From: an uncultured Bacteroidales bacterium
GTDB lineage: Bacteria > Bacteroidota > Bacteroidia > Bacteroidales > UBA932
Direction of reading: 5' to 3'
Length of the DNA stretch: 64,000 nucleotides
Assembly: GCA_900316245.1 (NCBI GenBank)
Contig: ONCE01000007.1
Span: 152,184-216,183 of the forward strand
The position numbers and the translations under genes were made by a program. Every line of letters begins with the position of its first letter. Position 1 is the stretch's first letter. Below, in pieces: positions 2,857-31,256 of the stretch. The notes under the pieces are model-generated. The model was not told where the DNA came from, made no database searches, and saw only the letters and a program-made list of their open reading frames with translations.

Positions 2857-3999
2857 TCAGTCGGCCTTGACCGTCTGGGCGGGATCGATACGGGCAATTA
2901 CCCGCGTAGGAGCCCAGAGAAGCAGCAGGATGCCCAGGAAAGCGGCGGCATCGGCCCCCAGAATCCATAAGATATTTACCCGCACCGGGACCCAGGAGAC
3001 GAAGTAATTGACCGGATCCAGGGGAATCAGATGCAGGGTGCCTTGAAGCAGGCAGAAAAGCAGGGCGGCGGCGTTTCCTATGAGCATACCTTTGAGCACT
3101 GCCTTGGCGCCGATGCGCACGAAAAGGCGGCCTATAGAACGGTTGTCCATCCCCAGGGTCTTGAGGGTGCCCACGGTAGAAATGTTCCGCAGGAGCATGA
3201 TCAGAAGGCCGCTCACCATATTGAAACCGGCCACCACCGTCATCAGGATCAGGATGATGACCACATTGTAATCCAGCAGGTTCAGCCAGTCGAAAACTTG
3301 CGGATAGCGCTGCCGGGAAGAAGTCACATAATAGTCTTCCAACAGCGAGCCGATATTCAGGGCCAGGCGGTTGGCATCGGCCCCTTCCCGGAGGGTCACT
3401 TCCAGGGAGGAAGCCTCCTCCTGCGTCCAGCCATTGAGGCGCTGGATGTCTTCCAGGTTGGCATATACCAGCAGGTTGTCGTCCAGTTCCAGCAGGTCCC
3501 GGTGGACCTCCCCGATCTGGAATTTGCGCACCCGGAGTTTCTCTCCCACAAAATAGGTGGTGAGGTCGTCCCCTACCCCTACGCCCAGAATCTCGCTCAA
3601 GCGCTGCGGGATGGAGACCTGAAGGGAGGGCCGATCGGCTCCGTCATCCCCGACCCGATCGGGGATCCCCTTCACGATGACGCCGTGCACGGTTTCCCCG
3701 TTTTTCACGATGCCGGCCCGCACGGCTACGGGCTGGATGTCCGAGACCCCGGGAAGCGCCCGGATGGCCTCTTCCTCGGGAAGGTGCACGGGCAGGGATT
3801 CGGGGTCATCGGTCCCCGACGGGAACGGGGAGATGGTCACATCGCCGGCCATGGCCGCCACTCCTTTCCGGATTTCATACCGGAAACCGGAGCTGACGGC
3901 CACTGCCACGATGATGACAAAGAAACTGACGGCGATAGCTACCGCCGCCACGTTTCCTTGAAAAGTAAGTTTCCTGGATATGAAGCGATCCGCTACCAA
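2857..3999 (-). CDS. LolC/LolE-type (FtsX family) ABC transporter permease
   Basis: The 380-residue membrane protein has one N-terminal transmembrane helix (about 15-38), a periplasmic MacB-like domain (about 40-240) and three C-terminal helices (about 245-375), the LolC/E and FtsX permease plan. Lol complexes release lipoproteins from the inner membrane. The apparent start is TTG at 3999, overlapping the end of the upstream M13 gene by 7 bases, so translation is probably coupled. In the periplasmic domain, the usual stretch of about 40 residues between the KG motif and the ISxxL helix is short. It is partly encoded by a perfect palindrome at 3642-3667 (residues about 111-119, IPDRVGDDG), described separately. 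No ATPase partner lies in the window. Confidence 0.8.
   Translation of the reverse strand: MVADRFISRKLTFQGNVAAVAIAVSFFVIIVAVAVSSGFRYEIRKGVAAMAGDVTISPFPSGTDDPESLPVHLPEEEAIRALPGVSDIQPVAVRAGIVKNGETVHGVIVKGIPDRVGDDGADRPSLQVSIPQRLSEILGVGVGDDLTTYFVGEKLRVRKFQIGEVHRDLLELDDNLLVYANLEDIQRLNGWTQEEASSLEVTLREGADANRLALNIGSLLEDYYVTSSRQRYPQVFDWLNLLDYNVVIILILMTVVAGFNMVSGLLIMLLRNISTVGTLKTLGMDNRSIGRLFVRIGAKAVLKGMLIGNAAALLFCLLQGTLHLIPLDPVNYFVSWVPVRVNILWILGADAAAFLGILLLLWAPTRVIARIDPAQTVKAD
3642..3667 (+). repeat. REP-like coding palindrome, copy 1 (in lolE-like gene)
   Basis: CGTCAT, then CCCCGA, loop CCCGA, TCGGGG, then ATC. The arms ATCCCCGA (3646-3653) and TCGGGGAT (3659-3666) pair perfectly. It has the same architecture as the elements in dnaG and metG. 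On the minus strand it is read through in frame by the permease gene. Confidence 0.75.
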
Positions 4000-6002
4000 A
4001 TGTGGACGCGCTCTGCCTCAGGACGGAACATAGGATCTCCTTCGTGGATGTCGAAGGCATCGAAGAAGCTCTGGAAGTTGCGGATGGATACGTTCACGCG
4101 GTTCTTGGCCAGGGAGTGGACATCCAGGTTGGTCAGACGGGCCTTCTCCTGGTCCGTGATGTTCTGGGCCCAGATGGCGCCGTAGCTCAGGTAGAAGCGC
4201 TGGGCACGGGTAAAGCCGTCAATCATAGGGTCCTTCTTGCCGGCGGTAGCGTTCTCCATAGCGGTGAAGGCGATGGAAAGGCCACCGTGGTCGCCGATGT
4301 TCTCACCCAGGGTGTAACGGCCGTTGGCGTGTACGCCGGGGAGGATTTCCACCTCGTCAAACTGGGCCACCAGCTTGTCTCCGAGGGCGTCGAACTTGGT
4401 CTTGTCCTCGGCGGTCCACCAGTTTTCCATATTGCCGTTGGCGTCGAACATGGAGCCCTGGTCGTCAAAGCCGTGGGACATCTCGTGGCCGATGACCACG
4501 CCGATGCCGCCGTAGTTCACGGGTTCATCTGCATTGGGATCGAAGAAGGGCTTCTGGAGGATGGCAGCCGGGAAGCAAATCTCATTGGTGGTGGGATTGT
4601 AGTAGGCGTTCACCGTCTGGGGAGTCATACCCCATTCGGTACGGTCCGTAGGCTGGCCCATCTTGCTCAGGTTGTCCTTCACATACCAGGCGCTGGCGTT
4701 GCGGAGGTTCTCGAAATAGGAGTTCTCAGGATTGATCTCCAGGGTGCTGTAATCTTTCCACTTGTCGGGATAACCGATCTTCACGGTGAAGGCGGCCAGT
4801 TTCTCGCGGGCCTTGACCTTGGTCTCGTCGCTCATCCATTCCAGCTGGTCGATGTGCTCACCCAGGGCGGTACGGAGGTTCTCCACCAGGGTTACCATCT
4901 TCTGCTTGGAACTCTCGGGGAAGTAACGCTCTACGTACATCTTGCCCACGGCTTCACCCAGCAGGCTGTTGGGAACGCTCATAGCGCGCTTCCAGCGGGG
5001 AGTCTCTTCCTGGGCACCGGCCATCTGGTGGGAGAAGAACTCCCAGGAGGCGGTATAGAACTCATCGGAGAGGGCGCCGGTCTGGCCGGAAACGAACTGG
5101 CAGAGCAGATAGGACTTGAGGTCTTCCAGTTTGGTCTTGGCGAAGAGGTCGTTCAGGCCCTGGAAATAGGAAGGCTGCTGGACGATGATCTTCTCCTGGG
5201 GAGTGATACCCACGGCTTCACACAGGGTGTTGAAGCGGAGTTCGGGCCAGGCCTTGCAGATCTGCTCGGAAGACATAGGGTTGTAGATGGCCTGCATATC
5301 ACGGTTCTTCTCACGGGGCCAGGCAATCTGGGCCATGGCGGTTTCAATGGCCAGGTCCTGGGCGGCGATGGCCTCGGCATTCTGGATGCCGCAGAGGTTG
5401 AGCACCTTCACCAGGAAAGCCTCGTAACCCTCCTTGAGGGCCTTGTTGCTTTCCAGCAGGTAGTAGTCACGGTCTCCCATACCCAGACCGCCCTGGCCCA
5501 GGTAAAGGACCTGAAGGTCGCTGTTGGTAAGGTCTGCCTCTACACCGGCGCCAAAGAAGCCGCCGTCTCCGTAGAGGTTCATCTTGCCAAGAAGGGTGGC
5601 CAGTTCCTCTTTGGACTGGACGGCCTGAATCTCGGCGATATAAGGCTGAAGAGGCTGGGCACCCAGTTCGTTGCGGGTGGTGGAGTCCATAGCCATCTTG
5701 TAGAGGTCGGAAATTTTCTGGTCTACGGTGCCGAAGGCGGCTTCCGTGGAAGTCATGCTCTGGAACAGGGCATTCAGGTTCTCCTGGGCCTGCTCGCGAA
5801 GGGCGTCAAAACTGCCGTAGCGGGAGAACTCCGGCTTGAGCGGGTTCTTCACCTGCCAGCCGCCGGTGGCATACTGATAGAAATCGGCCTTGGGGCTGAC
5901 GGTGGTGTCCAGGTCTGTAAGGTCCAGTGCGGGAGCGCCGCTCTTGGGGGCACAGGCTGCAAAGGAAAGGGCAGACATCATAATAATAAGTGCTTTTTTC
6001 AT
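3993..6002 (-). CDS. M13 (neprilysin/PepO family) zinc metallopeptidase, probable lipoprotein
   Basis: The start is set at 6002, where a lipoprotein signal begins (MKKALIIMM...FAAC, Cys about residue 17); an in-frame start 72 bases upstream would precede this signal and is less likely. The 669-residue length is usual for the family. The zinc motif HEMSH is at about residues 506-510 and the second metal ligand lies in ENIGD at about 567. An NAYYNPTTNEI segment (substrate-binding region) and the family's N-terminal PxxDFYQYATGGW are also present. M13 enzymes cleave oligopeptides; this one is expected to act in the periplasm or at the cell surface. A -7 box (TAATTTTG, minus strand 6045-6038) precedes it by 35 bases. 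It overlaps the permease start. Confidence 0.93.
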   Translation of the reverse strand: MKKALIIMMSALSFAACAPKSGAPALDLTDLDTTVSPKADFYQYATGGWQVKNPLKPEFSRYGSFDALREQAQENLNALFQSMTSTEAAFGTVDQKISDLYKMAMDSTTRNELGAQPLQPYIAEIQAVQSKEELATLLGKMNLYGDGGFFGAGVEADLTNSDLQVLYLGQGGLGMGDRDYYLLESNKALKEGYEAFLVKVLNLCGIQNAEAIAAQDLAIETAMAQIAWPREKNRDMQAIYNPMSSEQICKAWPELRFNTLCEAVGITPQEKIIVQQPSYFQGLNDLFAKTKLEDLKSYLLCQFVSGQTGALSDEFYTASWEFFSHQMAGAQEETPRWKRAMSVPNSLLGEAVGKMYVERYFPESSKQKMVTLVENLRTALGEHIDQLEWMSDETKVKAREKLAAFTVKIGYPDKWKDYSTLEINPENSYFENLRNASAWYVKDNLSKMGQPTDRTEWGMTPQTVNAYYNPTTNEICFPAAILQKPFFDPNADEPVNYGGIGVVIGHEMSHGFDDQGSMFDANGNMENWWTAEDKTKFDALGDKLVAQFDEVEILPGVHANGRYTLGENIGDHGGLSIAFTAMENATAGKKDPMIDGFTRAQRFYLSYGAIWAQNITDQEKARLTNLDVHSLAKNRVNVSIRNFQSFFDAFDIHEGDPMFRPEAERVHIW

Positions 6003-6037
6003 AGGACTTGGTAAATAAGTAGTAAGAATACGGTTTG

Positions 6038-6045
6038 CAAAATTA
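6038..6045 (-). promoter_or_regulatory. Bacteroidota -7 box upstream of the M13 gene
   Basis: TAATTTTG on the minus strand, one mismatch or less to TAnnTTTG, 35 bases before the M13 start and in the divergent gap to the YczE-like gene. The -33 element is not clear. Confidence 0.4.
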
Positions 6046-6089
6046 CACAATAATGCGGATATTTGCATCCCCATACAGGAAGTTTTTCA

Positions 6090-6770
6090 ATGAATCTTAA
6101 GAATATAGCCATACGTTACGGAATCTCCACCCTGGGCCTGGTCATCGTGGCTCTGGGCGTGGGCATTTCCATCAAATCCAATCTGGGCATTGCCCCGCCT
6201 TCCTGCCCTCCCACCATCCTCAATCTGAGATGGACGGGCATCAGCGTGGGCACTTTCACCTGGATGATGCACCTGGTGTTCATCGCCACCCAGGCCCTGA
6301 TCCTGGGCAAGCGCTTCCAACTCCGTTTCCTGATGCAAATTCCGGCCGCCTTCGTATTCGGATATATGTGCGATGCCGCCATCTGGCTCTTTGACGCCAT
6401 CTCCAACCCGGCCACCAGCTACGCCGTCCAGCTCCTCCTGAGCCTGGCTTCCGTGGTGCTTACCGCCATCGGCATCAAGCTGGAAGTGGTGGGCAACGGC
6501 TGGATCCTGGCCGGCGACAAGATAGTAGCCGTACTGGCCGATGTCCTCCGCAAGCCCTTCAGCACCATAAAAATCATCGTGGATGTAACCCTGGTGGCCC
6601 TCACCGCCGCCTTTGCGTGGTTCTCCTTCGGCCTGCTCACCGGCAACGGCACCACGGTGGTCATCCGCGAGGGCACCCTCATCTTGGCCCTCCTCACCGG
6701 CATCTGCATGCGCTTCACGGACCGTTACGTAGAGCGGTTCTTCGGCCCGCTGGTTCCCCGCGATGAATAA
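6090..6770 (+). CDS. YczE/YyaS/YitT-family integral membrane protein
   Basis: The start at 6090 is preferred because AGGAAG stands 7 bases before it; an upstream TTG at 6063 would add nine poorly conserved residues. The 226-residue protein has about five to six hydrophobic helices. Its N-terminal glycine-rich helix followed by SIKSNLGIAPPSCPP resembles the YczE-like family (DUF6198 type). The substrate is not known for this family. It overlaps the following transporter gene by 8 bases, so the two are probably co-translated. Confidence 0.7.
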   Translation: MNLKNIAIRYGISTLGLVIVALGVGISIKSNLGIAPPSCPPTILNLRWTGISVGTFTWMMHLVFIATQALILGKRFQLRFLMQIPAAFVFGYMCDAAIWLFDAISNPATSYAVQLLLSLASVVLTAIGIKLEVVGNGWILAGDKIVAVLADVLRKPFSTIKIIVDVTLVALTAAFAWFSFGLLTGNGTTVVIREGTLILALLTGICMRFTDRYVERFFGPLVPRDE

Positions 6771-7713
6771 CCTGGCCTCCCTCATAAGAAAGTGGATGCT
6801 GCCCGCCGCCATCGTGCTGGGCATCTGCCTCTATTTGACGTACCATTTCTGGCCGGCGCTGCATCCGTACGGGAAGTGGCTGCATCTGGCGGCCTCGGAA
6901 GGACAGCGGCTGGTCATTGCCGCGCTCCTGTTCTTCCAGTTTGTGAAGATTTCGCCCCACGACCTCAAGTTCCGGAGCTGGCATTTCAAGGCCCTGGGCA
7001 TCCAGGTGGGCTCTTTCCTGCTGCTGGCCCTGGCCGTCTATCTGCTGGAGCCCGGCCCCGTCCGTATGCTGCTGGAATGCGCGATGCTCTGTATGATCTG
7101 CCCCACCGCATCGGCCGCCGGCGTCATCACCGACCGCCTGGGCGGCAACCTGGCCTCCACCGTCACCTACCTGGCAATGATCAACGTGGCCGGCACCTTC
7201 CTCATTCCGCTGGTAATTCCGCTGGTGAATCCATCGGCCCATATGGGGTTCTGGGCTTATGTGGGACATATTGCCTGGAAGGTGTTCCCCGTCCTCATCC
7301 TGCCCGGACTGCTGGCCTGGCTCATCCGCTATACCACGCACCGGCTCCAACGCAGCCTGATGCGCTGGGCCTCCAACTCTTTCTATATCTGGGGTGTGGG
7401 CCTTACGCTGGCCCTGGTGCTGGCCACCCGTGCGCTCCTGCTGAGCGGCCTGGGAATGGGAGCCATTGCGGGGATCGTGGTGGTTTCCCTGCTCACCTGC
7501 TTCGTCCAGTTCTTCGCCGGACACCGCCTGCACCGTGAAAAGGTGGAGAACACCACCGCCGGACAGGCCCTGGGCCAGAAGAACACCGGTTTCCTCATCT
7601 GGCTGGGCTATAACTATATGACCCCCGTCACTTCCGTGGCCGGCGGCCTCTATGCCATCTGGCAGAATCTCTACAATTCCTGGGAACTGTACCAGAAAGA
7701 AAAAGAGGCCTAA
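6763..7713 (+). CDS. Bile acid:sodium symporter (BASS)-family transporter
   Basis: The 316-residue protein has eight to ten hydrophobic helices. Two BASS-like signatures are seen: CPTASAAGVITDRLGGN (about residue 107) and GQALGQKNTGFLIWLGYNY (about 266), the cross-over helix regions that bind sodium and substrate in this family. It should be an inner-membrane sodium-coupled carrier of an organic anion; the substrate cannot be told from sequence. It overlaps the YczE-like gene by 8 bases and converges with the Nudix gene, overlapping its end by 4 bases. Confidence 0.8.
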   Translation: MNNLASLIRKWMLPAAIVLGICLYLTYHFWPALHPYGKWLHLAASEGQRLVIAALLFFQFVKISPHDLKFRSWHFKALGIQVGSFLLLALAVYLLEPGPVRMLLECAMLCMICPTASAAGVITDRLGGNLASTVTYLAMINVAGTFLIPLVIPLVNPSAHMGFWAYVGHIAWKVFPVLILPGLLAWLIRYTTHRLQRSLMRWASNSFYIWGVGLTLALVLATRALLLSGLGMGAIAGIVVVSLLTCFVQFFAGHRLHREKVENTTAGQALGQKNTGFLIWLGYNYMTPVTSVAGGLYAIWQNLYNSWELYQKEKEA

Positions 7714-8321
7714 ATTCGGGCCTCTCTAAACACTTCCTGGATGGAAGGATAGGTATTTTTAAGGAAAGGCGGCAGGGAACTCTTGGCCACCCAGGCCGCT
7801 TTGGTGATGTCCTCTTCCCGCTGGGGCGTGAGGTTGGTGGGATCCGTGTACAGCATATCGTACCACCAGGTGTGCTTGAGATGCCAGAGGTTGTTCCGGA
7901 AGTACACGTGGTCCGTGATGCAGATGAGGCGGCGGAGGTCCAGCTGGTCCACGCCGGTTTCTTCCTGCACCTCTCTCATAGCGCACACTTCAATGTCTTC
8001 TCCGGGTTCCTGATGGCCCTTGGGAAGGTCCCAGAGCCCGTTTCGGGAAATGAGGAGGAAGTCTCCGCGGCGGTTGCTCACCAGCCCCCCGGCGGCGTTC
8101 ACTTCCTTGAATTCTGCACAAATCCTCCTGTAGCTCTGCTCCATATCCGTAGAGGGGATGTAGATGCGGGAAAGGGTGTCCTGCACTTCGAACATTCTCA
8201 CCAGTGCGCCAATATCCAGCCGCTCTCCCATATGGAATTCCACGCAGTTAGGGTCCGACAGGGCTTCGTCGTCCGGAGAACAAATAATGATGCAACGTTT
8301 TTCGAAGTAGATTTTGTGCAT
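7710..8321 (-). CDS. Nudix hydrolase
   Basis: The start at 8321 gives a 203-residue protein beginning MHKIYFEK; the open frame continues upstream but would run into the promoter of the divergent gene. A complete Nudix box is present at about residues 103-125: G-x5-E (GHQEPGE), then x7, then REVQEETGV. These enzymes hydrolyse nucleoside diphosphates linked to another moiety; the substrate is not evident. The N-terminal 70 residues are not the Nudix fold and may be a small accessory domain. The gene is divergent from the SRPBCC gene and may share the control region 8322-8360. Confidence 0.85.
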   Translation of the reverse strand: MHKIYFEKRCIIICSPDDEALSDPNCVEFHMGERLDIGALVRMFEVQDTLSRIYIPSTDMEQSYRRICAEFKEVNAAGGLVSNRRGDFLLISRNGLWDLPKGHQEPGEDIEVCAMREVQEETGVDQLDLRRLICITDHVYFRNNLWHLKHTWWYDMLYTDPTNLTPQREEDITKAAWVAKSSLPPFLKNTYPSIQEVFREARI

Positions 8322-8330
8322 GGTTTTTGC

Positions 8331-8338
8331 TATATTTG
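8331..8338 (+). promoter_or_regulatory. -7 box of the SRPBCC gene
   Basis: TATATTTG matches the Bacteroidota TAnnTTTG consensus exactly and lies 22 bases before the ATG at 8361. An A-rich leader follows. Confidence 0.6.
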
Positions 8339-8360
8339 CAGCGCACAAAGATAGAAAATT

Positions 8361-8810
8361 ATGACCAATATAGAAAGCAAACACGGCATCGTATCCCGCC
8401 AGCCCTACGAACTCTATATGTCTTTCACGGACCTGAGCAACTTCGTGAAGATGCTCCCGGAAGACAAAAGGGAGATGATAACGGCCGATATGGACACCCT
8501 CACCGCCACGGTGCAGGGCTTCAACATTGGCGTCAAGGTGCACCAGAGAGTGCCCTACTCCCGCATTGAACTGGTAGACTACGGCGCCCCGTTCGCCTTC
8601 CACATCCTGGTCCATTTCGAGCCCGCCCACGAAGATCCCTACAAGACGGATTTCTGGGTGGAGATAGAGGCAGACCTCAACCTGATGATGAAAATGATGC
8701 TTTCCGGTAAAATCCAGGAGGCCCTGGACAAGATGGTCGACGGCCTGGTGGATGCTTCCAACGGCAAGATGCCGGAAGGTTTCGACGTAGAGAAATGGGC
8801 TGGGAAGTAG
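8361..8810 (+). CDS. SRPBCC (START-like) family protein
   Basis: The 149-residue protein has no signal or membrane segment. The opening SRQPYELYMSFTDLSNFVKMLP, central strand-rich region and long C-terminal amphipathic helix (LSGKIQEALDKMVDGLVDA) match the helix-grip layout of SRPBCC proteins, which bind hydrophobic ligands in a cavity. No ligand or catalytic role can be assigned. It has its own promoter box and its 3' end overlaps the RsmF-like gene by 16 bases. Confidence 0.65.
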   Translation: MTNIESKHGIVSRQPYELYMSFTDLSNFVKMLPEDKREMITADMDTLTATVQGFNIGVKVHQRVPYSRIELVDYGAPFAFHILVHFEPAHEDPYKTDFWVEIEADLNLMMKMMLSGKIQEALDKMVDGLVDASNGKMPEGFDVEKWAGK

Positions 8811-9952
8811 TGTTCCCGGAAGATTTCATAAATCTGCTGAAGGCCTCCGTGGGCCCGGCGGAGAAAGTGCTGGAGGCGCTCGGTGAAGCGCCTTCCGTTT
8901 CCATCCGCCTGAACCCTTCCAAACTCCGCGAGTGCCCCTTCCCGGATGCCCAACCGGTTCCCTGGAGCCCCTTCGGCTATCTCCTGAAAGAGCGCCCCGT
9001 CTTTACGCTGGATCCCCTTTTCCACGCCGGCTGCTACTATGTGCAGGATACTTCGGCCATGTTTGTGGGCCACGTATTCCGCCAGTTGCTGCCCCTGATG
9101 GAACCGGGAGCCACGGTGCTGGACCTCTGCGCCGCTCCCGGCGGCAAGAGCACGGACCTGGCCGCCTCCCTGCGGGAACGCTGGGGGAACGCCTTCACCC
9201 TGCTGGCCAACGAGGTTATGCGAAACCGTTTCGGCGTGCTCCGCAGCAACCTGGACACCTGGGGAGACCCCCGTACCGGCTGCGTGTCGCGGGATCCTTC
9301 GGCCTTTGGAGACAGCCCCCTGTTCGACGCCATCGTGGCCGATGTCCCCTGCTCCGGCGAGGGAATGTTCCGCAAGGACGCCCAGGCCGTGGCCGAGTGG
9401 TCGCTCCAGACGGTGGAGTTCTGCGCAGCCCGCAGCCGCCGCATCCTCCGCGACATCTGGCCCACCCTCAAGCCGGGCGGCTTCCTGGTCTATTCCACCT
9501 GCACCTTCAACCACTTTGAAAACGACGATACCGTGGAGTGGATAGCCTCCGAATTGGGGGCCGATATCCTCCCGCCCCAGGACTTCCCGCCGGCCGTCAC
9601 CACCCGCTGCGGCCAGGTGCTCCTCCCGGGGCTGGTGCCCGGAGAAGGGCAGTACGTAGCCGCTCTCCGCAAACACGGAGAGGCGTCCGGAGTAAGGCAG
9701 GCCGATGTTTTCCGCCTCTTCCAGGCGCAGTGCCCCTCGGCACCGGAGAGCGATGCCCAGAAGGTGGAAGTGGACCGTGAAACGGCGCTCCGCTACCTGC
9801 ACGGAGATGCCGTGGTACTGCCGGAAAACGCCCCGCTGGGGCCCGTCACCCTTTGCTTCCAGGGGCAGCCCCTGGGCCCGGGCAAGAACCTGGGAAAGCG
9901 CTGCAACAACCTTTATCCCAAAGCCAAACGAATTAAAATGGATATCCGATGA
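8795..9952 (+). CDS. rsmF: RsmF/NOL1-NOP2-Sun family rRNA (cytosine-C5) methyltransferase
   Basis: The 385-residue enzyme shows the SAM-binding motif LDLCAAPGGKST at about residue 108. The motif IV Cys is in DVPCSGEGMF (about 182) and the nucleophile Cys of motif VI is in YSTCTF (about 232). The C-terminal 100 residues form the RNA-binding extension seen in RsmF/YebU-like proteins. It should methylate a cytosine of 16S rRNA. The exact target base is inferred from the family only. It overlaps both neighbours (16 bases upstream, 4 downstream). Confidence 0.87.
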   Translation: MGWEVVFPEDFINLLKASVGPAEKVLEALGEAPSVSIRLNPSKLRECPFPDAQPVPWSPFGYLLKERPVFTLDPLFHAGCYYVQDTSAMFVGHVFRQLLPLMEPGATVLDLCAAPGGKSTDLAASLRERWGNAFTLLANEVMRNRFGVLRSNLDTWGDPRTGCVSRDPSAFGDSPLFDAIVADVPCSGEGMFRKDAQAVAEWSLQTVEFCAARSRRILRDIWPTLKPGGFLVYSTCTFNHFENDDTVEWIASELGADILPPQDFPPAVTTRCGQVLLPGLVPGEGQYVAALRKHGEASGVRQADVFRLFQAQCPSAPESDAQKVEVDRETALRYLHGDAVVLPENAPLGPVTLCFQGQPLGPGKNLGKRCNNLYPKAKRIKMDIR

Positions 9953-10878: not shown

Positions 10879-10937
10879 AACAAGTTTCATTTTTGTCCAC
10901 CCTCATTTTTTTTGTCCACGTTACCCCCTCCCGAAAC

Positions 10938-10965
10938 CCCTCCCCTCGGGGGAGGGACTTTTTTT
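10938..10965 (+). terminator. Rho-independent terminator after the TPR gene
   Basis: Stem CCCTCCCC (10938-10945) pairs with GGGGAGGG (10949-10956) across a 3-base loop and is followed by a run of seven T. It lies 59 bases after the stop codon. Confidence 0.75.
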
Positions 10966-11030
10966 GTCACTTCGTGAAACTTTTATACAATAAAGGGCGT
11001 ATATAAAGAGTATCAATATTACGGCGTGTA

Positions 11031-12080: not shown

Positions 12081-12111
12081 GAATCGTAAGAAACACACAA
12101 AATACCGTCTG

Positions 12112-12147: not shown

Positions 12148-12172
12148 CGTTATTGTACCCTATCTTGCGGGT

Positions 12173-13315: not shown

Positions 13316-13348
13316 ATCCCACCTGGCCCAAGATTTCGTTTTTTTGCG

Positions 13349-23196: not shown

Positions 23197-25394
23197 TTCG
23201 CTACCTCGCAGAGGAATTTGATTCGAACCAGACGGATCTCGAGTTCCTCGTATTCGTCTTCGAGGGCGGCGATGGCATCCTGAAGGGAATCTGAGGTGGC
23301 TTCCATCTTGAACCAGGTAAAGATTTCTTCCACCACGTCCGGATCCAGTTCTTCCTCTATATAATAGTTGATGTTGATGCGGGTACCGGTGGCCACGATG
23401 GCCTCGATCTCCGTGAGAAGATCCCCCATATCCAGACCGCGGGCCGAGGCAATGTCGGCCAAATCCAGCTTGCGGTCTATGGCCTGGATAATATAAACCT
23501 TGTTGCCCGATTTGGGGGCTACGGAACGGACCACGAAATCGTCCGGGCGCTCAATCTCGTTCTCCTCCACGTACTTGGCGATGAGGTCCACAAAGGGCTT
23601 TCCAAACTTGTGGGCCTTACCTTCTCCCACCCCCTGGCACTTTTCCGAGAGTTCCTTGAGGGTGAGCGGATAGACAATGGTCATATCCTCCAGGGCAGGG
23701 TCCGAGAACACCACCCAGGGCTGCAGACGGAGCTTGCGGGCCACGTCTTTGCGGAGATCCTTGAGCATGGAGAGCAGCACAGGGTCTCCCCCGCCGCCAC
23801 CGCGGGCGGCGGCACCGGCTTCATCATCATCTTCGTCTACACCTTCCGAGAATACGCGGTCTTCTACCATCAGGACCGTCTTGGGGTTCTTGATGAACTC
23901 TTCTCCGGCTCCGGTGACGAAGATGAGGCCGTAGTTTTCTATGTCCTTATCCAGGTAATGCAGGATGAGACCCTGGTGGATGACGGTGGACCAGAAGCGG
24001 ACATCGTGGTCTTTTCCGGCACCGAACAAGGGCAATTCATCGTGCCTGTAAGACTTAATCATGGCGGTGGAAACACCGGCCAGGATGGCGGCCAGATGCT
24101 CCAGTTTGAAGCGTTCCGGCAGGGACTGGATCAGTTCGATCACGAGGCACAGCTCTTCCTTTCCGTCGAAGCGCTTCTTGGGATGGAGACAGTTGTCGCA
24201 GGCGCAGCAGTTGTCCGGGGTATAGTCTTCTCCAAAGTAATTGAGAAGGAGCTTGCGGCGGCACTGGCTGGACTCCGCGTAGGCTACCGTTTCATTGAGC
24301 AGCTGCTTGCCTATCTCCTGTTCGGCTATGGGCTTGCCCTGCATGAACTTCTCCAGTTTCTGGATGTCTTTGTAACTGTAGTAGGTAATGCATCGGCCCT
24401 CCTGCCCGTCACGGCCGGCGCGGCCGGTTTCCTGGTAGTAGCCTTCTATGCTCTTGGGGATGTCGTAGTGGATGACAAAGCGGACATCCGGTTTGTCGAT
24501 GCCCATCCCGAAGGCGATGGTGGCCACAATGACGTCAATCTCCTCCATCAGGAACTTGTCCTGGTTTTCGGCCCTGGTTTTGGTGTCCAGGCCAGCGTGG
24601 TACGGAAGGGCCTTGATGCCGTTGATGGAGAGCATCTGGGCCATCTCCTCCACCTTTTTGCGGCTGAGGCAGTAGATGATGCCGGACTTGCCGGGGTTCT
24701 GGCGGATGAAACGGATGATGTCTTTCTCCGGTTCCACCTTGTCCCTCACTTCGTAATAGAGGTTGGGCCGATTGAAGGAGGACTTGAAGACCGTGGCATC
24801 CTGGATGCGGAGGTTCTTGAGAATATCGCTCTGCACCTTGGGCGTAGCCGTGGCCGTCAGGGCTATGATGGGAGCGGGCTGGATTTCATCTACGATGGAG
24901 CGGATTTTCCGGTATTCCGGGCGGAAGTCGTGGCCCCATTCAGAAATACAGTGGGCCTCATCTACCGCATAGAAGGAAATCTTCACGCCCCTCAGCAAGG
25001 CTATGTTCTCTTCCTTGGTAAGGGACTCCGGTGCCACATACAGCAGTTTGGTAACGCCGCGGCGGAGGTCTTCCTGGACCTCTGCCAGTTGGATGCGGTT
25101 CAGGGACGAATTGAGGAAGTGGGCTATTCCGGCCTCTCCGGCTTCGAAACCGCGGATGGCGTCTACCTGATTCTTCATAAGGGCGATGAGCGGCGAGATG
25201 ACGATGGCCGTTCCTTCCATAATGAGAGCCGGAAGCTGATAGCACAGGGACTTGCCGCCTCCCGTGGGCATCAGCACAAAAGCGTTGTTGCCCGCGATGA
25301 GGTGTTTGATGATTTTCTCCTGGTCGCCTTTAAACGCATCGTAACCGAAGAAAGTCTTCAACTTTTCGTGCAATATGACAGTAGGGGCGTCCAT
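23193..25394 (-). CDS. recQ: ATP-dependent DNA helicase RecQ
   Basis: The 733-residue protein has all superfamily 2 helicase motifs: MPTGGGKSLCYQLPA (about 40), DEAHCISEWGHDFRPEY (about 143), TATAT (about 176) and GIDKPDVRFVIHYDIPKSIEGYYQETGRAGRDG (about 300). A Zn-binding RQC region follows with C-x-x-C type cysteines (CRRKLLLNYF...CCACDNC). The HRDC domain is at about 540-620. A Glu/Asp then Gly-rich linker (about 515-540) precedes HRDC. It unwinds recombination intermediates. A -7 box TAGATTTG (minus strand 25440-25433) lies 38 bases upstream. Confidence 0.96.
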   Translation of the reverse strand: MDAPTVILHEKLKTFFGYDAFKGDQEKIIKHLIAGNNAFVLMPTGGGKSLCYQLPALIMEGTAIVISPLIALMKNQVDAIRGFEAGEAGIAHFLNSSLNRIQLAEVQEDLRRGVTKLLYVAPESLTKEENIALLRGVKISFYAVDEAHCISEWGHDFRPEYRKIRSIVDEIQPAPIIALTATATPKVQSDILKNLRIQDATVFKSSFNRPNLYYEVRDKVEPEKDIIRFIRQNPGKSGIIYCLSRKKVEEMAQMLSINGIKALPYHAGLDTKTRAENQDKFLMEEIDVIVATIAFGMGIDKPDVRFVIHYDIPKSIEGYYQETGRAGRDGQEGRCITYYSYKDIQKLEKFMQGKPIAEQEIGKQLLNETVAYAESSQCRRKLLLNYFGEDYTPDNCCACDNCLHPKKRFDGKEELCLVIELIQSLPERFKLEHLAAILAGVSTAMIKSYRHDELPLFGAGKDHDVRFWSTVIHQGLILHYLDKDIENYGLIFVTGAGEEFIKNPKTVLMVEDRVFSEGVDEDDDEAGAAARGGGGGDPVLLSMLKDLRKDVARKLRLQPWVVFSDPALEDMTIVYPLTLKELSEKCQGVGEGKAHKFGKPFVDLIAKYVEENEIERPDDFVVRSVAPKSGNKVYIIQAIDRKLDLADIASARGLDMGDLLTEIEAIVATGTRININYYIEEELDPDVVEEIFTWFKMEATSDSLQDAIAALEDEYEELEIRLVRIKFLCEVAN

Positions 25395-25432
25395 CCGCTA
25401 TCAGTTTTTTCGCTTGCTGGGGTTAAATATAA

Positions 25433-25440
25433 CAAATCTA
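25433..25440 (-). promoter_or_regulatory. -7 box of recQ
   Basis: TAGATTTG on the minus strand matches TAnnTTTG exactly and is 38 bases from the recQ start, in the divergent gap to the FKBP gene. Confidence 0.5.
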
Positions 25441-25492
25441 AATCGAAAAAACAAACGATGATGGAACCTTATGTAATCTGACAAAAAATGCG

Positions 25493-25500
25493 TATATTTG
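25493..25500 (+). promoter_or_regulatory. -7 box of the FKBP gene
   Basis: TATATTTG fits the consensus exactly. The transcript should begin a few bases downstream, at or next to the perfect palindrome 25507-25522. Confidence 0.6.
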
Positions 25501-25506
25501 CAGGTT

Positions 25507-25522
25507 GAGCGCTCGAGCGCTC
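25507..25522. promoter_or_regulatory. 16-bp perfect palindrome at the predicted FKBP transcript start
   Basis: GAGCGCTCGAGCGCTC equals its own reverse complement. It begins 6 bases after the -7 box. It could be an operator for a dimeric repressor or a hairpin at the 5' end of the mRNA. Confidence 0.55.
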
Positions 25523-25558
25523 CCAAACCTGATATTTAAGTATCAAAAACATAAGAAA

Positions 25559-26329
25559 ATGAAACTTCAGAAAATCCTTCTTGCCGCTTCCGCCGCTTTG
25601 CTGGTGGTTGCTTGTGGCTCTCCCAAGGTGGAGGGTTCCAAGGCTGTTCAGTCCCTCTACCCCACCAAGGGTGAAACCGACTCCACTTCCTATCTCCTGG
25701 GTGTCAACTTCGGCCTGGTCATTACCCAGAACGGTTTTGGCGAACTCAACATGGCTCAGGTAGAAAAGGGTATGAAAGACGCCCTCAACGCCAAGGAAGG
25801 CCAGCCCATGGATTCCGCTTTCGTAAAACAGTTCAAGATCAACCCCAGCACCATGAACGAGGTTATCAACGGTTACCTCCAGAAGGTTACCGCTTACGAA
25901 GGCGCCCTCAACAAGGAAAAGGGTGACAAGTTCCGCAAGGAATTCGCCGTAAAGAACAGCGCAGATTCCACCGCTTCCGGTATCGTTTACCTGATCCAGG
26001 ATTCCGGTAACGACGTCCGCGCCACCGACGACCGCGACACCGTGAAGGTGAACTACCGCGGTACCCTCATCGACGGCAAGGAGTTTGACAAGAACGAAGG
26101 CATCGAGTTCCCCCTCAACCGCGTCATCCGCGGATGGACCGAGGGTATGAAGCTCGTGGGCGAAGGTGGCAAGATCACCCTCGTCATCCCTGCCAACCTG
26201 GCTTACGGCGAGCGTGGACCCCGTGAGATCGGTGTCAACTCCACCCTCATCTTCGACGTAGACCTCCTGGAGGTTCACCCCTACAAGGAGCCCGTCGCCG
26301 AGACCGTCACCCCCATCAAGAAGAAGTAA
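25559..26329 (+). CDS. FKBP-type peptidyl-prolyl cis-trans isomerase, probable lipoprotein
   Basis: The start at 25559 gives a lipoprotein signal (MKLQKILLAASAALLVVAC, lipid Cys about residue 19) and a 256-residue protein. The N-terminal half is the helical dimerisation domain of FkpA/Mip-like proteins (about 35-150). The C-terminal half is the FKBP domain (about 160-245) with VKVNYRGTLIDGKEFD, the aromatic pocket segment VIRGWTEGMKLVGEG and LAYGERG. It should assist folding of envelope proteins. The DUF3127 gene follows after 1 base. Confidence 0.92.
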   Translation: MKLQKILLAASAALLVVACGSPKVEGSKAVQSLYPTKGETDSTSYLLGVNFGLVITQNGFGELNMAQVEKGMKDALNAKEGQPMDSAFVKQFKINPSTMNEVINGYLQKVTAYEGALNKEKGDKFRKEFAVKNSADSTASGIVYLIQDSGNDVRATDDRDTVKVNYRGTLIDGKEFDKNEGIEFPLNRVIRGWTEGMKLVGEGGKITLVIPANLAYGERGPREIGVNSTLIFDVDLLEVHPYKEPVAETVTPIKKK

Positions 26330-26330
26330 G

Positions 26331-26741
26331 ATGGCACTGGAACTGGAAGGCACTCTTCGCCAGAAGCTGGGCGTACAGTCCGGCACTTCGGCCCGCGGCC
26401 CCTGGGCCAAGCAGGAATTCATTGTGGAGTTCCCGGACGGCAACTTCACTTCCCAGGCCTGCTTCACCGCGTGGGGACAGGACAAGGTGGCCGAACTGGA
26501 CAAGTACCAGGTGGGAGACCGCGTAAAGGTTTCCTTCAACCTCAAGAGCCGTGAATTCAACGGCCGCTGGTACAACGACCTCCAAATCTGGCGCATCGCC
26601 CCCGCCGGAGAAGCCCAGCCCGCCGCTGCGGCTCCCGCCTATGCACCGGCCGCCCCTCAGGCACCGGCTCCCATGGCTCCGGCACCCACTTTGGACGACA
26701 TGCCAGCCGACAGCGGTCCCGAAGACGACCTCCCCTTCTAA
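26331..26741 (+). CDS. DUF3127 protein with SSB-like acidic C-terminal tip
   Basis: The 136-residue protein has an OB-fold-like N-terminal domain (about 1-88), as in the DUF3127 family. An Ala/Pro-rich disordered linker (about 90-122) leads to the ending EDDLPF. The last residues closely resemble the DDDIPF tip of single-stranded DNA-binding protein, through which SSB recruits repair and replication partners. The layout (OB-like domain, flexible linker, acidic tip) is that of SSB. Function is unproven. It lies between FKBP and a strong terminator, a few hundred bases before dnaG. Confidence 0.75.
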   Translation: MALELEGTLRQKLGVQSGTSARGPWAKQEFIVEFPDGNFTSQACFTAWGQDKVAELDKYQVGDRVKVSFNLKSREFNGRWYNDLQIWRIAPAGEAQPAAAAPAYAPAAPQAPAPMAPAPTLDDMPADSGPEDDLPF

Positions 26742-26746
26742 GCACT

Positions 26747-26778
26747 AAAAAACCTTCGGCTTTTCCCGAAGGTTTTTT
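26747..26778. terminator. Strong bidirectional-type terminator
   Basis: A 13-bp perfect stem AAAAAACCTTCGG (26747-26759) / CCGAAGGTTTTTT (26766-26778) with a 6-base loop. The next promoter box begins only two bases later. Confidence 0.85.
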
Positions 26779-26779
26779 G

Positions 26780-26787
26780 TATCTTTG
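26780..26787 (+). promoter_or_regulatory. -7 box of the small membrane protein-dnaG-metG operon
   Basis: TATCTTTG is an exact consensus match and ends 6 bases before the ATG at 26794, leaving essentially no leader. It is directly joined to the preceding terminator. Confidence 0.6.
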
Positions 26788-26793
26788 CGAACT

Positions 26794-27081
26794 ATGACAA
26801 ATATCAGTTTCAATAACAGATGGGTACGGATGGTCAAAGACCTTCTGTTTGCCGCCGTGGGCGCCTGGCTCGTATGGCGGGGAGGCTTCTTTTCCACCCT
26901 GCTGGGCGTATTCGCCCTGCTCTGGTACGGCCGTGACGCCTGGTACCAGATCAAGGTCCTGTGGCAGGAGAAACACTATATCCCCCAGGACAGCCCCATC
27001 TCCCGTCCCACCACAACGCCCGACGACGGAAAGATCACTGTTACCCGGGACGCCAAAGAGGTGGATTATGAGAAGGAATAA
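26794..27081 (+). CDS. Small membrane protein of unknown function upstream of dnaG
   Basis: The start at 26794 yields 95 residues. A hydrophobic region at about 16-42, probably one or two helices, is followed by a polar tail ending in acidic residues. No family was recognised. It ends 3 bases before dnaG and is first in the dnaG-metG transcript. Confidence 0.6.
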   Translation: MTNISFNNRWVRMVKDLLFAAVGAWLVWRGGFFSTLLGVFALLWYGRDAWYQIKVLWQEKHYIPQDSPISRPTTTPDDGKITVTRDAKEVDYEKE

Positions 27082-27084
27082 CGT

Positions 27085-29079
27085 ATGATTCCTAAAGAGA
27101 CAGTAGACCTCATCCTGGACACCGCCCGTGTAGAAGAGGTGGTGGGAGACTACGTGACGCTCAAACGCCGCGGGGCCTCCCTCTGGGCCTGCTGTCCCTT
27201 CCACAACGAGAAAACCCCGTCCTTTGCCGTAACGCCTTCCAAGGGCATCTACAAATGCTTTGGCTGCGGCAAGTCCGGCAGTGCGGTGGGCTTTGTGATG
27301 GATTACGAGCATATGACGTACCCCGAAGCCCTGCGTTACCTGGCCAAAAAATACAACATCGAGGTCAAGGAAGAGGAAGAAACGGCCGAACAGATAGCCG
27401 CCCGCCAGCGCAGCGAAAGCCTGATGGCGGCCTCGGAGTTTGCCTTCAACTTCTTCAAGGAGCAGCTCACGCAGCCGGAAGGAAAGGCCATAGGCTACCA
27501 GTACTTCCGCAGCCGCGGCCTGCTTCCGGAGACCATTGAGAAATACGGTCTGGGCTGGGCTCCCAAATCCAAGGAAGCCTTTACGCAGGCGGCCAAGAAC
27601 GCCGGTTACAAAGACGAGTATCTGCTGGAAACCGGCCTTTGCAGCCAGTGGGAAGACGGTTCCCTTCACGACCGCTTCTACGACCGCGTCATCTTCCCCA
27701 TCCACTCGGTAAGCGGGCGCGTCATAGCCTTTGGCGGCCGTACCCTCCTCAAGGAGAAGAGCGACAAGATAGCCAAGTACGTCAACTCCAAGGAAAGCGA
27801 GATTTACGTCAAGTCCCGCTCCCTGTACGGCATCTGGTTTGCCAAGAACGAGATGGCCAAACAGGACCGCTGCTACCTGATGGAAGGCTACCTGGACGTA
27901 CTGTCCATGCACCAGGCCGGCATCCTCAACTGCGTAGCCTCCAGCGGCACTTCCCTCACGGAGGAGCAGATCCGCATCATCAAGAAGTTCACGGAGAACG
28001 TCACCATCATGTACGACGGAGATGCCGCCGGCCTGCACGCCGCCATCCGTGCCATCGGCATGATTCTCAAAGAGGGTATGAACCCCCGCGTGGTCTTCCT
28101 GCCCGACGGGGACGACCCTGATTCCTTCTCCCAGAAACATACGCTGGAAGAGATCCAGGACTACATCAAGGACAACGAGCAGGACGGCATAGCCTTCAAG
28201 ACCAACCTCCTGCTGGAGGAAGCCGGAGACGACCCTCTCAAGAAGGCCAACCTCATCAACGAGATAGCCGATACGGTGGCCGACATTCCCGACGCCATCA
28301 AGCGCCAGGTCTACGTGGACACCGTGGCCCGCCAGTTTGGCATAGAGTCCGACATTATCCAGGACCGCGTCCGCAAGACCCGCGAGAAGAACCGCCGGGA
28401 GATGCCCGGTCGAGCCGGGCATGACGAAAGGAGTGCCGGGCCGGACGGAAGGAGTGCCGGGCCGGACCAAAACGTCATGGCCGACACCGATCGGCCATCT
28501 ACAGAGCGGAGGATTCTGGAAGAAGACCGGATTCTGGCTCCCGCCGAGCGGGAACTCCTGGGCTTCATCCTTCGCTATGGCCGCAATCCCCTGCAGTTTG
28601 AAACCGACTCCGAGTTCTACGATCCGGAAGGTTCCCAGACGGTGGCGGATTTCATAGATTCGGCCCTCTCCTCAGACGATATCCACTTTGGCAACAAGGC
28701 CTACGAGGCAACTTACAATGCCTACTTCGCCCTGTATGACCAGGGCCTGGAACAGGATGACATTGTCCTGGCCCTCCTCAATGGGGAAGACCGCGTTGTG
28801 GCCGGGGTGGCCGCAGAGCTTTCGTCCGAGAAATACGAACTCACCGTCCACAACTTTACGGACGCCCTTACCACCACGGATTCCTGGCTGGTAACCTATG
28901 TTCCCAGAGCCATCCTGGTCTATCACGACAAAAGGATAGAGGCCCAGCAGGCCGATATTGCCCGGAAACTGAAAGCCGATGTAAGCATAGAGGAGGCCAA
29001 GGAACTGATGACCCGACTCACCCGACTCAATGAATTCAAAAAGAAACTCAATATCAAACTTGGAAGACTGAAGAAATGA
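27085..29079 (+). CDS. dnaG: DNA primase
   Basis: The 664-residue protein has the N-terminal CHC2-type zinc finger ([12 protein letters not shown] at about 37, then CFGCGKSG at about 59). The catalytic Toprim core follows with [14 protein letters not shown] at about 266 and [12 protein letters not shown] at about 311. The C-terminal helicase-binding region is at about 480-664. Between core and C-terminus a 33-residue stretch (about 440-472) is encoded by two REP-like palindromes flanking a 21-bp tandem repeat. It keeps the frame and lengthens the natural linker. Primase makes RNA primers for replication. It overlaps metG by 4 bases. Confidence 0.96.
28401..28426 (-). repeat. REP-like coding palindrome, copy 2 (in dnaG, reverse orientation)
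   Basis: Arms ATGCCCGG (28402-28409) and CCGGGCAT (28415-28422) pair perfectly, followed on the plus strand by GACG. On the minus strand it reads CGTCAT-GCCCGG-loop-CCGGGC-ATC, matching the other copies. Confidence 0.75.
28426..28467 (+). repeat. 21-bp tandem repeat (two units) between the dnaG palindromes
   Basis: Units 28426-28446 and 28447-28467 differ at one base and each encode the RSAGPD-type heptapeptide. The repeat lies between two oppositely oriented palindromes, giving a mosaic resembling a BIME. Confidence 0.7.
28473..28499 (+). repeat. REP-like coding palindrome, copy 3 (in dnaG)
   Basis: CGTCAT, GGCCGA, loop CACCGA, TCGGCC, ATC. The arms pair perfectly. Relative to the lolE copy two arm positions have changed, and the opposite arm has changed to match. 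Confidence 0.75.
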
Positions 29080-31256
29080 GCTACAAGAGAACCCTTGTGA
29101 CCTGCGCGCTTCCCTACGCCAACGGTCCCGTCCATATTGGCCATCTGGCCGGCGCCTACATTCCCGGAGACATCTACGTCCGCTACCTGCGTATGCGCGG
29201 GGAGGATGTGGTCTTTGTCTGCGGCTCCGACGAGCACGGCGTGCCCATCACCATCAAGGCCCGCGCCAACGGCGTAACCCCGCAGGACATTGTGGACAAG
29301 TACCACAAGGTAATGAAAGACGCCTTCGCGGGTCTGGGAATCAACTTTGACATATACTCCCGCACCTCTTCGGCCGTGCACGAGAAGAACGCCTCCGAGT
29401 TCTTCCGCAAACTCTACGACCAGGACAACTTCATTACCCAGGAGAGCGAGCAGCTCTACGATGAAGAGGCCAAGATGTTCCTTACGGACCGTCTCATCGA
29501 GGGAACCTGCCCCAAGTGCGGCAACCCCCACGCCTACGGAGACCAGTGCGAGAATTGCGGCAGCACCCTTAGCCCCGAAGAGCTCATAGACCCCAAGTCC
29601 AAGCTCAGCGGCAGCACCCCCGTCAAGAAAAAGACCAAGCACTGGTACCTGCCCCTGAACCAGTACGAGCCCTGGCTCCGAGACTGGATCCTGGAGCAGC
29701 ACAAGGAATGGAAGACCAATGTATACGGCCAGTGCAAGAGCTGGCTGGACGGCGGCCTGCAGCCCCGCGCCGTCACCCGTGACCTGGACTGGGGCGTACC
29801 CGTTCCGGTAGAAGGAGCAGAAGGAAAGGTCCTCTACGTGTGGTTCGACGCCCCCATCGGCTATATCTCCAACACCCAGGAGCTGCTGCCCCAAAGCTGG
29901 GAGAAATGGTGGAAAGACCCCGAGACCAAGCTGGTGCACTTCATTGGCAAGGACAACATCGTGTTCCACTGCATCGTGTTCCCGTCCATGCTCAAGGCCT
30001 ACGGAGACTACATTCTCCCGGACAACGTGCCCTCCAACGAGTTCCTCAACCTGGAAGGAGACAAAATCTCCACGTCCCGCAACTGGGCCGTCTGGGTGCA
30101 CGAATACGAGCAGGAATTCCCCGGCTGCGAGGACGTGCTGCGTTACGTGCTCACCGCCAACGCCCCCGAAACCAAGGACAACGACTTTACCTGGAAAGAC
30201 TTCCAGAGCCGCAACAACAGCGAACTGCTGGCCGTCTTCGGCAATTTCGTGAACCGTGCCGTAGTCCTTACCCACAAGTACTTTGGCGGCGCCGTTCCGG
30301 AAAACAAGAAGCCGGAGGCCATTGACAAGGAGACCCTGGAGGCCTTGAAGCCCTGCCGGGAAGCCCTGGAGAAATACATCGAGACCTACCACTTCCGCGA
30401 AGCCCTCAAGGAAGCCATGAACATGGCCCGCATCGGCAACAAGTACATCTCCGACATGGAGCCCTGGAAGGTGGCCAAGGAAGATATGGACCGCTGCGCC
30501 AGCATCCTCTACACCTGCCTGCAGATCTGCGCAGACCTCGCCATCGCCTTCGAGCCCTTCACTCCTTTCAGCGCCGAAAAGCTGCGCACCATCCTCCGTG
30601 TGGGCCTCAACGCCGGAACCGACCACCGCGCCGGAGAAGGAACCCCCACCGTGAACTTCTTCAAACCCGAGGAAGGCAAGGCCGTCCATACGGCCCCGTC
30701 ATCCCCGGCTCCGACCGGGGATCTGATCCTGGACTGGAACATGCTGGGCAACGCCGAACTCCTCCCCGCCGGTCACCAGCTGGGAGAAGCCGTGCTGCTG
30801 TTCCGCAAGATTGAAGATGAGGAAGTGAATGCCCAGATTGCCAAGCTGGAAGCCATCAAGAAGGCCCGCGAAGAGGCCGAAGCCGCCAAGGCCGCCGAGG
30901 AAGCCTCCAAGAAGGTGGAGCCCCAGAAGGCCGAAGTCACCTTTGACCAGTTTGGCGCCATGGACATCCGCACCGCCACCGTGCTGGCCGCCGAGCGCGT
31001 ACCCAAGACGGACAAGCTCCTCAAGCTCACCATCGACACGGGCATTGACACCCGCACCATCGTCTCCGGCATCGCCGAGTACTACAGCCCCGAAGACATG
31101 CTGGGCAAACAGATCTGCATCCTCGCGAACCTCGCTCCGCGCACCATCCGCGGCATCGAGTCCAAGGGCATGATCCTGATGGCCAAGCAGGGAGACGGCA
31201 AGATGCGCTTCATCACGCCCCAGGAGGTCGTGACCAACGGAGCCCAGATAGGTTAA
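29076..31256 (+). CDS. metG: Methionyl-tRNA synthetase with C-terminal tRNA-binding domain
   Basis: The 726-residue protein has the class I HIGH-type motif ([11 protein letters not shown], about 15-25), a zinc knuckle ([18 protein letters not shown], about 145-162) and KMSKS replaced by KISTS (about 329), a common variant. The anticodon-binding helices follow, and a C-terminal EMAP/Trbp111-like OB domain occupies about 625-726. Between the helical domain and the DLLPAGHQ-like segment there is an added stretch (about 508-560). It contains a perfect REP-like palindrome at 30697-30723 (residues about 541-549). It overlaps dnaG by 4 bases. Confidence 0.96.
30697..30723 (+). repeat. REP-like coding palindrome, copy 4 (in metG)
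   Basis: CGTCAT, CCCCGG, loop CTCCGA, CCGGGG, ATC. The arms ATCCCCGG (30701-30708) and CCGGGGAT (30715-30722) pair perfectly. The element is in frame within the linker of metG. Confidence 0.75.

Follow-up and report, generated by a model that had tools for sequence, protein, structure and literature searches.

Four hairpins of the window and the family they belong to

We examined a family of short palindromes, four copies of which lie in a 64,000-nucleotide stretch of DNA (the window; contig ONCE01000007.1 of assembly GCA_900316245.1, positions 152,184 to 216,183) from an uncultured Bacteroidales bacterium. An earlier note, made from the sequence alone, had placed them at 3642–3667 (+), 28401–28426 (reversed), 28473–28499 (+) and 30697–30723 (+), all inside genes, and had described each as CGTCAT, a six-base arm, a loop of five or six bases, a perfectly complementary arm and ATC. 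Positions and layout proved exact for all four, and the stem is 8 bp in each once the flanking AT/AT is counted. The host genes, identified by Pfam, are a MacB_PCD/FtsX permease gene ("LolE-like" being the note's own name), dnaG and metG. In design the palindromes match CGTC-tagged repetitive extragenic palindromes (REPs), a kind already known.

2857..3999, minus strand: MacB_PCD/FtsX permease gene (PF12704, PF02687), host of the copy at 3642
3642..3668, plus strand: CGTC-REP copy, 43.0 bits; 5-nucleotide loop; arms CCCCGA/TCGGGG; antisense to the permease gene
27085..29079, plus strand: dnaG primase; the hairpin pair lies after the DnaB_bind match (residues 382–422) and before the C-terminal part
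28400..28426, minus strand: CGTC-REP copy, 47.4 bits; 5-nucleotide loop; arms GCCCGG/CCGGGC; antisense to dnaG
28473..28500, plus strand: CGTC-REP copy, 46.7 bits; 6-nucleotide loop; arms GGCCGA/TCGGCC; sense to dnaG
29076..31256, plus strand: metG; Anticodon_3 match at residues 407–508, tRNA_bind match at 631–723, the copy lying between them from residue 540
30697..30724, plus strand: CGTC-REP copy, 48.3 bits; 6-nucleotide loop; arms CCCCGG/CCGGGG; sense to metG

The two dnaG copies form a head-to-head pair with a spacer of 46 nucleotides, the first half encoding EMPGRAGHD and the second VMADTDRPS, and the copy at 3642 encodes GIPDRVGDD within a permease gene whose coding score is positive on both sides of the repeat. 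These three use the reading that is favoured in the genome at large (see below); the metG copy is the exception, its rarer frame encoding SSPAPTGDL, of the S-x-P-A-P-T-G type. With looser settings (GTCAT or CTCAT as head, 5-base arms, one mismatch, loop 4–13), scanning the window returned the same four hairpins and one degenerate match at 5752, with 0 matches in the reversed control. A search of the window against Rfam gave no family at the gathering threshold.

The genome of the window comprises 2.24 Mb in 35 contigs, and its genus may be Cryptobacteroides of GTDB. A strict pattern that fixed the GTCAT head, the closing AT and one CG each in both arms and the loop, leaving four of the six arm pairs free, matched it 38 times (19 per strand), versus 0 matches for the pattern read backwards. 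At the free arm positions 147 of 152 pairs were Watson–Crick; 1000 shuffles of the partners averaged 107 such pairs and never exceeded 119. The matched arm changes reported in the earlier note are thus found across copies, and the genome-wide count that it had proposed is not at chance level. Scanning the window and the first loci, which had been chosen for holding copies, gave 38 distinct copies versus 0 in the reversed control, with a 6-nucleotide loop in 24 and a 5-nucleotide loop in 14. A covariance model built from 33 distinct copies found at least 116 places in the genome at E values up to 1 (below 0.01 in every case except one); this count rests on the best 150 of 2590 candidates and is a lower bound. 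The "72 best copies" below are those of at least 42.3 bits among the 116, a cut that we chose.

A single copy is 27–28 bp long and consists of CGTC, an 8-bp stem starting with AT, the loop, the complement and a tail of CT or CC. Loops of 5 nucleotides include CTTGA, CCTGA and CTCGA, and those of 6 nucleotides CTCCGA and CACCGA, among others. The CGTC head was present in 33/33 aligned distinct copies and one further copy starts with TGTC, head variation being under-sampled since the search patterns fixed GTCAT. The stem has eight pairs with 99.2% of cells paired, the first two being A–U and U–A in 33/33, statistics that are partly circular as the copies were preselected for the head, the AT and at most one arm mismatch; for this reason we judged pairing on the free-arm test of the 38 matches. 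Among 31 pairs of neighbours within 150 bp, 17 were head-to-head, 1 was tail-to-tail and 13 were head-to-tail, and 13 of the 17 head-to-head pairs, that of dnaG included, combined one copy with a 5-nucleotide loop and one with a 6-nucleotide loop.

CGTC REPs are defined by an unpaired CGTC (or TGTC, CCTC) at one end, a stem of 8 or 9 bp starting with A–T pairs and a loop of 4–5 nucleotides, with other lengths in some species (Di Nocera, De Gregorio, Rocco 2013; PMC3733652). REPs inside open reading frames (ORFs), including those of DNA-repair and RNA-modification genes, have also been described before, with Bacteroidetes among the hosts (PMC3733652). By the sections of that paper available to us, our copies share with CGTC-1 to CGTC-4 REPs the CGTC head, the AT-starting 8-bp stem, the short loop and tail and the head-to-head pairs, as well as the intergenic copies between co-directional or convergent genes and the intra-ORF copies, many in replication, repair or RNA-modification genes. 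They differ in their loops (5/6 nucleotides here, 4/5 described), in the tail (CT/CC here, CCA there) and in their head-to-tail neighbours, which make up 13 of 31 pairs here and were called negligible there. The earlier note had likened the hairpins to Rickettsia palindromic elements (RPEs) in opposition to REPs. The likeness was well seen: RPE-4, RPE-6 and RPE-7 frequently contain ATGAC, which is GTCAT on the other strand, lie in frame in conserved genes, and have different elements or none at the same site in sister species (PMC3767692). The opposition was false, as RPE-6 and RPE-4 have been assigned to CGTC-1 and CGTC-4 REPs (PMC3733652) and the present copies are not restricted to genes. 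RPEs do differ in being alphaproteobacterial, with inserts of 84 to 192 bp in the tabulated rows, and RPE-1 to -3 belong to other groups (PMC3767692).

Placement, orientation and reading frame

We called genes in 547 kb, taken as 45 segments around all matches, with a hexamer model trained on their long ORFs; this caller of our own, not a curated annotation, gave 483 genes covering 89% of the bases. Of the 72 best copies, 36 lay inside predicted genes, 30 were intergenic and 6 overlapped a gene end; for all of the at least 116 copies the numbers were 50, 58 and 8. The earlier observation of no copy in an intergenic gap is therefore true of the window and not of the genome, and the idea of gene-restricted rather than intergenic elements does not stand. 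Copies are in fact depleted in genes, since only half of the best are inside though predicted genes make up about 89% of the DNA fetched. The other 36 best copies comprised 19 between co-directional genes (5 of which overlap a gene end), 9 between convergent genes, 1 between divergent genes and 7 at segment ends. Coding signal in the same frame was seen on both sides of 32 of the 36 inside copies and was lacking on one side in 4. Of the intragenic copies, about half of the best, nearly all use the single frame that is predicted to give the protein a soft, glycine-rich stretch.

The 50 inside copies fall in 33 host genes, most named by Pfam and one without a Pfam match, names beyond the Pfam family being our own reading. 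They include dnaG primase, methionyl-tRNA synthetase metG, the clamp-loader gene dnaX, mutL, clpX, ftsK, the DNA alkylation repair gene alkD, a PD-(D/E)XK nuclease, truB, a second pseudouridine synthase, an mnmA-type enzyme, two methyltransferases, ATP synthase gamma (atpG), FGAM synthase (purL), a PBP1C-like transglycosylase, MatE, GDP-mannose dehydratase and two glycoside hydrolases, one of which holds just a weak copy. The copies in dnaG, metG, mutL, ftsK, dnaX and clpX do not interrupt a Pfam domain match but fall between such matches or beyond them. The host genes appear here as open and, judged by their sequences, conserved reading frames.

Orientation inside genes was nearly fixed and depended on loop type: among the 72 best copies, those with a 5-nucleotide loop were antisense in 19 of 20 cases and those with a 6-nucleotide loop were sense in 16 of 16. 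The favoured orientation was thus seen in 35 of 36 inside copies, compared with 19.2 expected from stop-free placements, and the favoured frame in 31 of 36, compared with 8.1 expected with all stop-free placements equal. Between co-directional genes the same orientation was found in 12 of 19 copies (9 of 14 strictly intergenic), the difference from 35/36 being significant (P = 0.0016, Fisher's test). With all copies taken, 43 of 47 inside copies with a 5- or 6-nucleotide loop had the favoured orientation. Because partners of a pair are not independent, we also counted by gene, using the first-listed copy, and obtained 27/27 for orientation and 24/27 for frame. Stop codons are not the cause of the bias, since each orientation of each loop type keeps at least two open frames in the consensus. 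In the favoured reading most copies of the 5-nucleotide type give M-[PA]-G-Q-A-G-H-D and most of the 6-nucleotide type V-M-[PA]-[GD]-x-D-R-[AP]-S, exactly or with small changes; an E, K or Q residue precedes 17 of 18 favoured-frame 5-nucleotide-loop copies, partly owing to the element's own AG tail. Replication direction was considered as a source of the orientation bias and set aside by reasoning, as it cannot yield 35/36 relative to the gene strand.

Orthologous sites and a candidate mobiliser

The comparison of orthologues proposed in the earlier note shows that the elements are present or absent by species at dnaG, metG and clpX. For dnaG, 21 relative loci were found by name, 19 of them from Bacteroidales/Bacteroidia metagenome bins, many of them titled as rumen or gut samples, and the other two titled Akkermansia and Verrucomicrobia. 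The linker gave model matches in 2 of 19 relative loci (L032–L050), namely L049, with stems identical to those of the window and changed loops, and L033, with different stems; the element was missing in 8 of 10 aligned relatives. In the metG linker, L036 holds a pair, and L033, L034 and L035 hold, by eye, other GTCAT-type palindromes. The clpX gene of the window's genome has a hairpin pair in the linker between the zinc finger and the AAA domain; clpX was matched at threshold in 41 of the 61 genomes searched, 30 of which became loci, and in 29 of 29 aligned congeners there was neither such a peptide nor a model match within the gene. At clpX the protein has gained about 8 residues net, fewer than the pair encodes, which indicates that the linker was also trimmed or overwritten. 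The picture is one of hairpins turning over in tolerant stretches, as for RPE-4, -6 and -7. This also qualifies the earlier claim that the paired structure is maintained: covariation across copies is real, yet individual copies need not have been kept paired in place, because the dnaG stems, the same in the window and L049 and different in L033, are what would be expected if new copies arose already paired.

CGTC REPs were described in 2013 as apparently without a dedicated transposase (PMC3733652). The search for a transposase of the IS200 or REP-associated tyrosine transposase (RAYT) kind, also suggested in the earlier note, found a RAYT-like Y1 family in the window's genome: nine longer Y1 HUH matches, each within an open frame of at least some 300 codons (one of these matches also crosses three stop codons), and two short ones with stops. 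A genus profile built from three of this genome's Y1 proteins replaced PF01797, which had been used in a 61-genome comparison and under-detected Y1. With the genus profile the family was found in 170 of 200 congeneric genomes, and the repeat model gave at least one copy in 132 of the 200; copy counts in this set are lower bounds (for the window's genome, the best 37 of 2374 candidates), and values near 37–42 are saturated. Five or more copies were present in 81 of 170 genomes with Y1 versus 0 of 30 without (P = 5e-8, Fisher's test, a value in which kinship, GC content and completeness are not modelled), the Y1-less congeners having at most 4 copies among the matches listed. A control with DDE_Tnp_1 showed no link, five or more copies occurring in 27 of 73 genomes that have it and in 54 of 127 that do not (P = 0.46). 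Among 24 genomes from other genera of the order, 2 had model matches, one being G058 (see below).

Close to Y1 genes the repeat was somewhat denser, with 19 matches in 178.6 kb within 1.5 kb versus 36 in 665.2 kb at 1.5–8 kb (P = 0.005); the count used 55 of 68 matches, those of at least 25.8 bits, and left out L200, which overlaps L199, and the Y1 stretches of other genomes, 54 in number, had been selected among listed matches in repeat-rich genomes and not at random. In a first scan of 30 Y1 loci there were 14 repeat matches nearby, 5 of them at contig C22 of the window's genome. At that site (L056:4290–6236, G000:C22) a DNA-alkylation-repair gene with three palindrome copies or remnants adjoins a Y1 transposase-like gene, itself near further repeat copies. 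At G212:C92:203–2173 (L214), a Y1 gene (458–1330) has five copies of the CGTC REP within about 0.85 kb; of the sites we saw, this comes closest to a REPtron, that is, a Y1 gene flanked by the repeat. These two sites look like REPtrons, and such an arrangement is not borne out by the 62 loci as a whole.

Among the Y1 proteins sampled (L140–L176; 35 rows from 37 loci, mostly best matches and so favouring one subgroup), MSNHVH occurred in 26 of 34 and a Y-x-x-x-N-C tyrosine motif in 25 of 34, most commonly as YVQMNC. YVQMNC matches none of the tyrosine motifs, of the N-P type, in the part of the TnpA-REP subclass table available to us, though NHVH is represented in it (Quentin et al. 2018; PMC6006769); subclass 2.6, of Bacteroidetes, has NH[LIV]H and YIH[QN]NP (PMC6006769). 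By their motifs, the sampled proteins possibly represent an undescribed TnpA-REP subclass. With the RAYT systems of bacterial interspersed mosaic elements and GTAG REPs, as covered in the parts of that paper available to us, the present case shares hairpins often in inverted pairs and the Y1 HUH family, here tracking repeat copy number; it differs in having no GTAG tag and Y1 genes that are not regularly flanked by the repeat (PMC6006769). The Y1 family as mobiliser of the repeat is plausible but unproven.

Explanations of the spread and of the bias

We think it likely that the palindromes are non-autonomous, spreading CGTC-tagged REPs copied by a Y1 transposase, and that the copies surviving in genes have been filtered at the protein level. 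The hairpin repeat would be copied via a folded single strand by a RAYT-type Y1 HUH transposase, which we infer from the fact that no congeneric genome lacking such a protein was seen to hold more than 4 copies; single-strand copying would in turn leave copies paired from the start, with arms that differ in matched fashion. Insertions would land in genes and spacers alike, and the survivors in genes would be those in tolerant places such as linkers and loops and in the frame giving a cysteine-free, glycine/proline-rich, near-neutral peptide (e.g., MPGQAGHD... or VMPGSDRAS...). The bias is then better read as a protein-level filter than as a property of insertion, because it is weak or absent between co-directional genes. 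There is no evidence that the encoded peptides are useful.

Several observations weigh against this explanation. In metG, the inner stem and loop are present in L049 and L032 with no CGTCAT head, and both loci encode nearly the same peptide as the window; the earlier note had named the same peptide without the palindrome as evidence against its own proposal, and this is partly what we see there, which argues against the window's lineage having gained the copy by a simple, recent insertion. The net length gain at clpX, dnaG and metG is small or nil, and no clean insertions with exact borders were seen. Copies lie within a Pfam match in atpG, alkD, mnmA, an RNA methyltransferase, GDP-mannose dehydratase and a glycosyltransferase. 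The open frames VMPGLTGH and DARSEPGMT look equally harmless and are hardly used, which a peptide filter leaves unexplained. In other genomes the trend is weaker, with the favoured orientation in 20 of 25 inside copies versus 6 of 13 in co-directional gaps (P = 0.064) and the favoured frame in only 15 of the 25; that set comprised 44 of 60 repeat matches outside the window's genome and 8 of 12 from relative loci, the weakest being left out, the caller was trained on those genomes' own DNA, and the 25 include orthologous sites and hence are not all independent. As for the enzyme, 89 of 170 Y1-bearing genomes have fewer than five copies, the repeat lies within 250 bp of a Y1 gene at only 3 of 62 loci (4 matches), and the rate near Y1 genes is only about twice that further out, with 9 of the 19 near matches coming from two loci. 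The repeat has the head CGTC and not the GTAG tag of known RAYT substrates. Kinship was examined only by a clpX tree of 30 species, just four of them Y1-less; these four need three changes on the tree and hence are not one clade, in what is a small sample. Finally, G058, a 99% complete genome from another genus of the order, has 35 model matches and no PF01797 match; PF01797 also missed G001 and G014, repeat-rich congeners in which the genus profile finds Y1 genes, so that G058 may yet hold one.

The nearly fixed frame and orientation could also reflect domesticated linker cassettes, in which the peptide or an mRNA hairpin is useful, by slowing translation between domains or as a flexible linker, and one frame is selected. 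The position of the copies between or outside Pfam matches in six of the named hosts agrees with this, as do the dnaG stems left unchanged between the window and L049 while the loops changed, yet orthologues mostly do without the element (29/29 lack it at clpX, 2/19 match at dnaG), sister species have different palindromes or none in the same linker, the host genes are functionally unrelated and some copies sit within domain matches, so that we regard such cassettes as unlikely. No selection at all would be needed if insertion itself were specific for orientation and frame, through an enzyme target phased with codons or a strand bias set by transcription. The almost absolute orientation inside the genes of the window's genome speaks for such targeting, and so does the E, K or Q before 17/18 copies, in part the element's own AG tail; the 12/19 here and 6/13 in other genomes between co-directional genes speak against it, and we hold this weakly tested rival to be improbable. 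That the hairpins are chance palindromes or a codon-usage artefact of a GC-rich genome, as a GC content of 57.6% in the window might suggest, has next to no probability given the empty reversed controls in the genome and in the first loci and the complementarity at free positions.

A more far-reaching version of the favoured explanation, that of spreading REPs copied by a Y1 enzyme, would make the Y1 family of about 300 residues (MSNHVH ... Y-V-Q-M-N-C) the mobiliser of the CGTC REPs, working in trans and not from flanking copies, and would make mobile DNA in this genus a steady supply of in-frame linker peptides, the pair of a 5- and a 6-nucleotide-loop hairpin being built to read in one orientation as a benign linker of two parts (MPGQAGHD...VMPGSDRAS) that lets the element colonise genes; this we consider rather doubtful. 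In the genus, with more than 200 sequenced species, some have more than 100 copies and many have none among the matches listed; this spread, together with a Y1 family whose absence tracks near-absence of the repeat, makes the question of a CGTC-REP transposase testable. The nearly fixed frame in genes, for its part, is a quantitative case of a selfish repeat adding peptides to essential proteins outside Rickettsia and Wolbachia. In the literature searched, and within the portions of it available to us, we found no report of an intragenic frame or orientation bias of CGTC REPs or of their association with Y1; these two points go beyond the prior work found, and we do not claim novelty for such a bias in general.

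Other repeats were noticed beside the CGTC copies. A composite repeat of about 0.5–1 kb, with embedded REP copies and internal repeats, has about nine occurrences in the fetched stretches: G000:C31:5640–6780 (L071), where only short ORFs are listed, C1:4347–5158, C13:48493–49321, C22:34218–34773, C23:34983–35894, C33:47012–48089, C33:62710–63441, C34:38851–39843 and C34:74921–75429. A second palindrome family of the GTCAT type, GTCATTCTGAGCG...GAATCT, is likewise found in frame within genes, reading CHTERSE or CHSERSEES, at L056:8396–9103 (+) and in the metG genes of both L034 and L035. A third related palindrome, with the head CTCAT and the stem CCCGGG (CTCATCCCGGGCTCTGACCC...), stands beside CGTC copies, at G000:C31:6615–6640 and upstream of several others.

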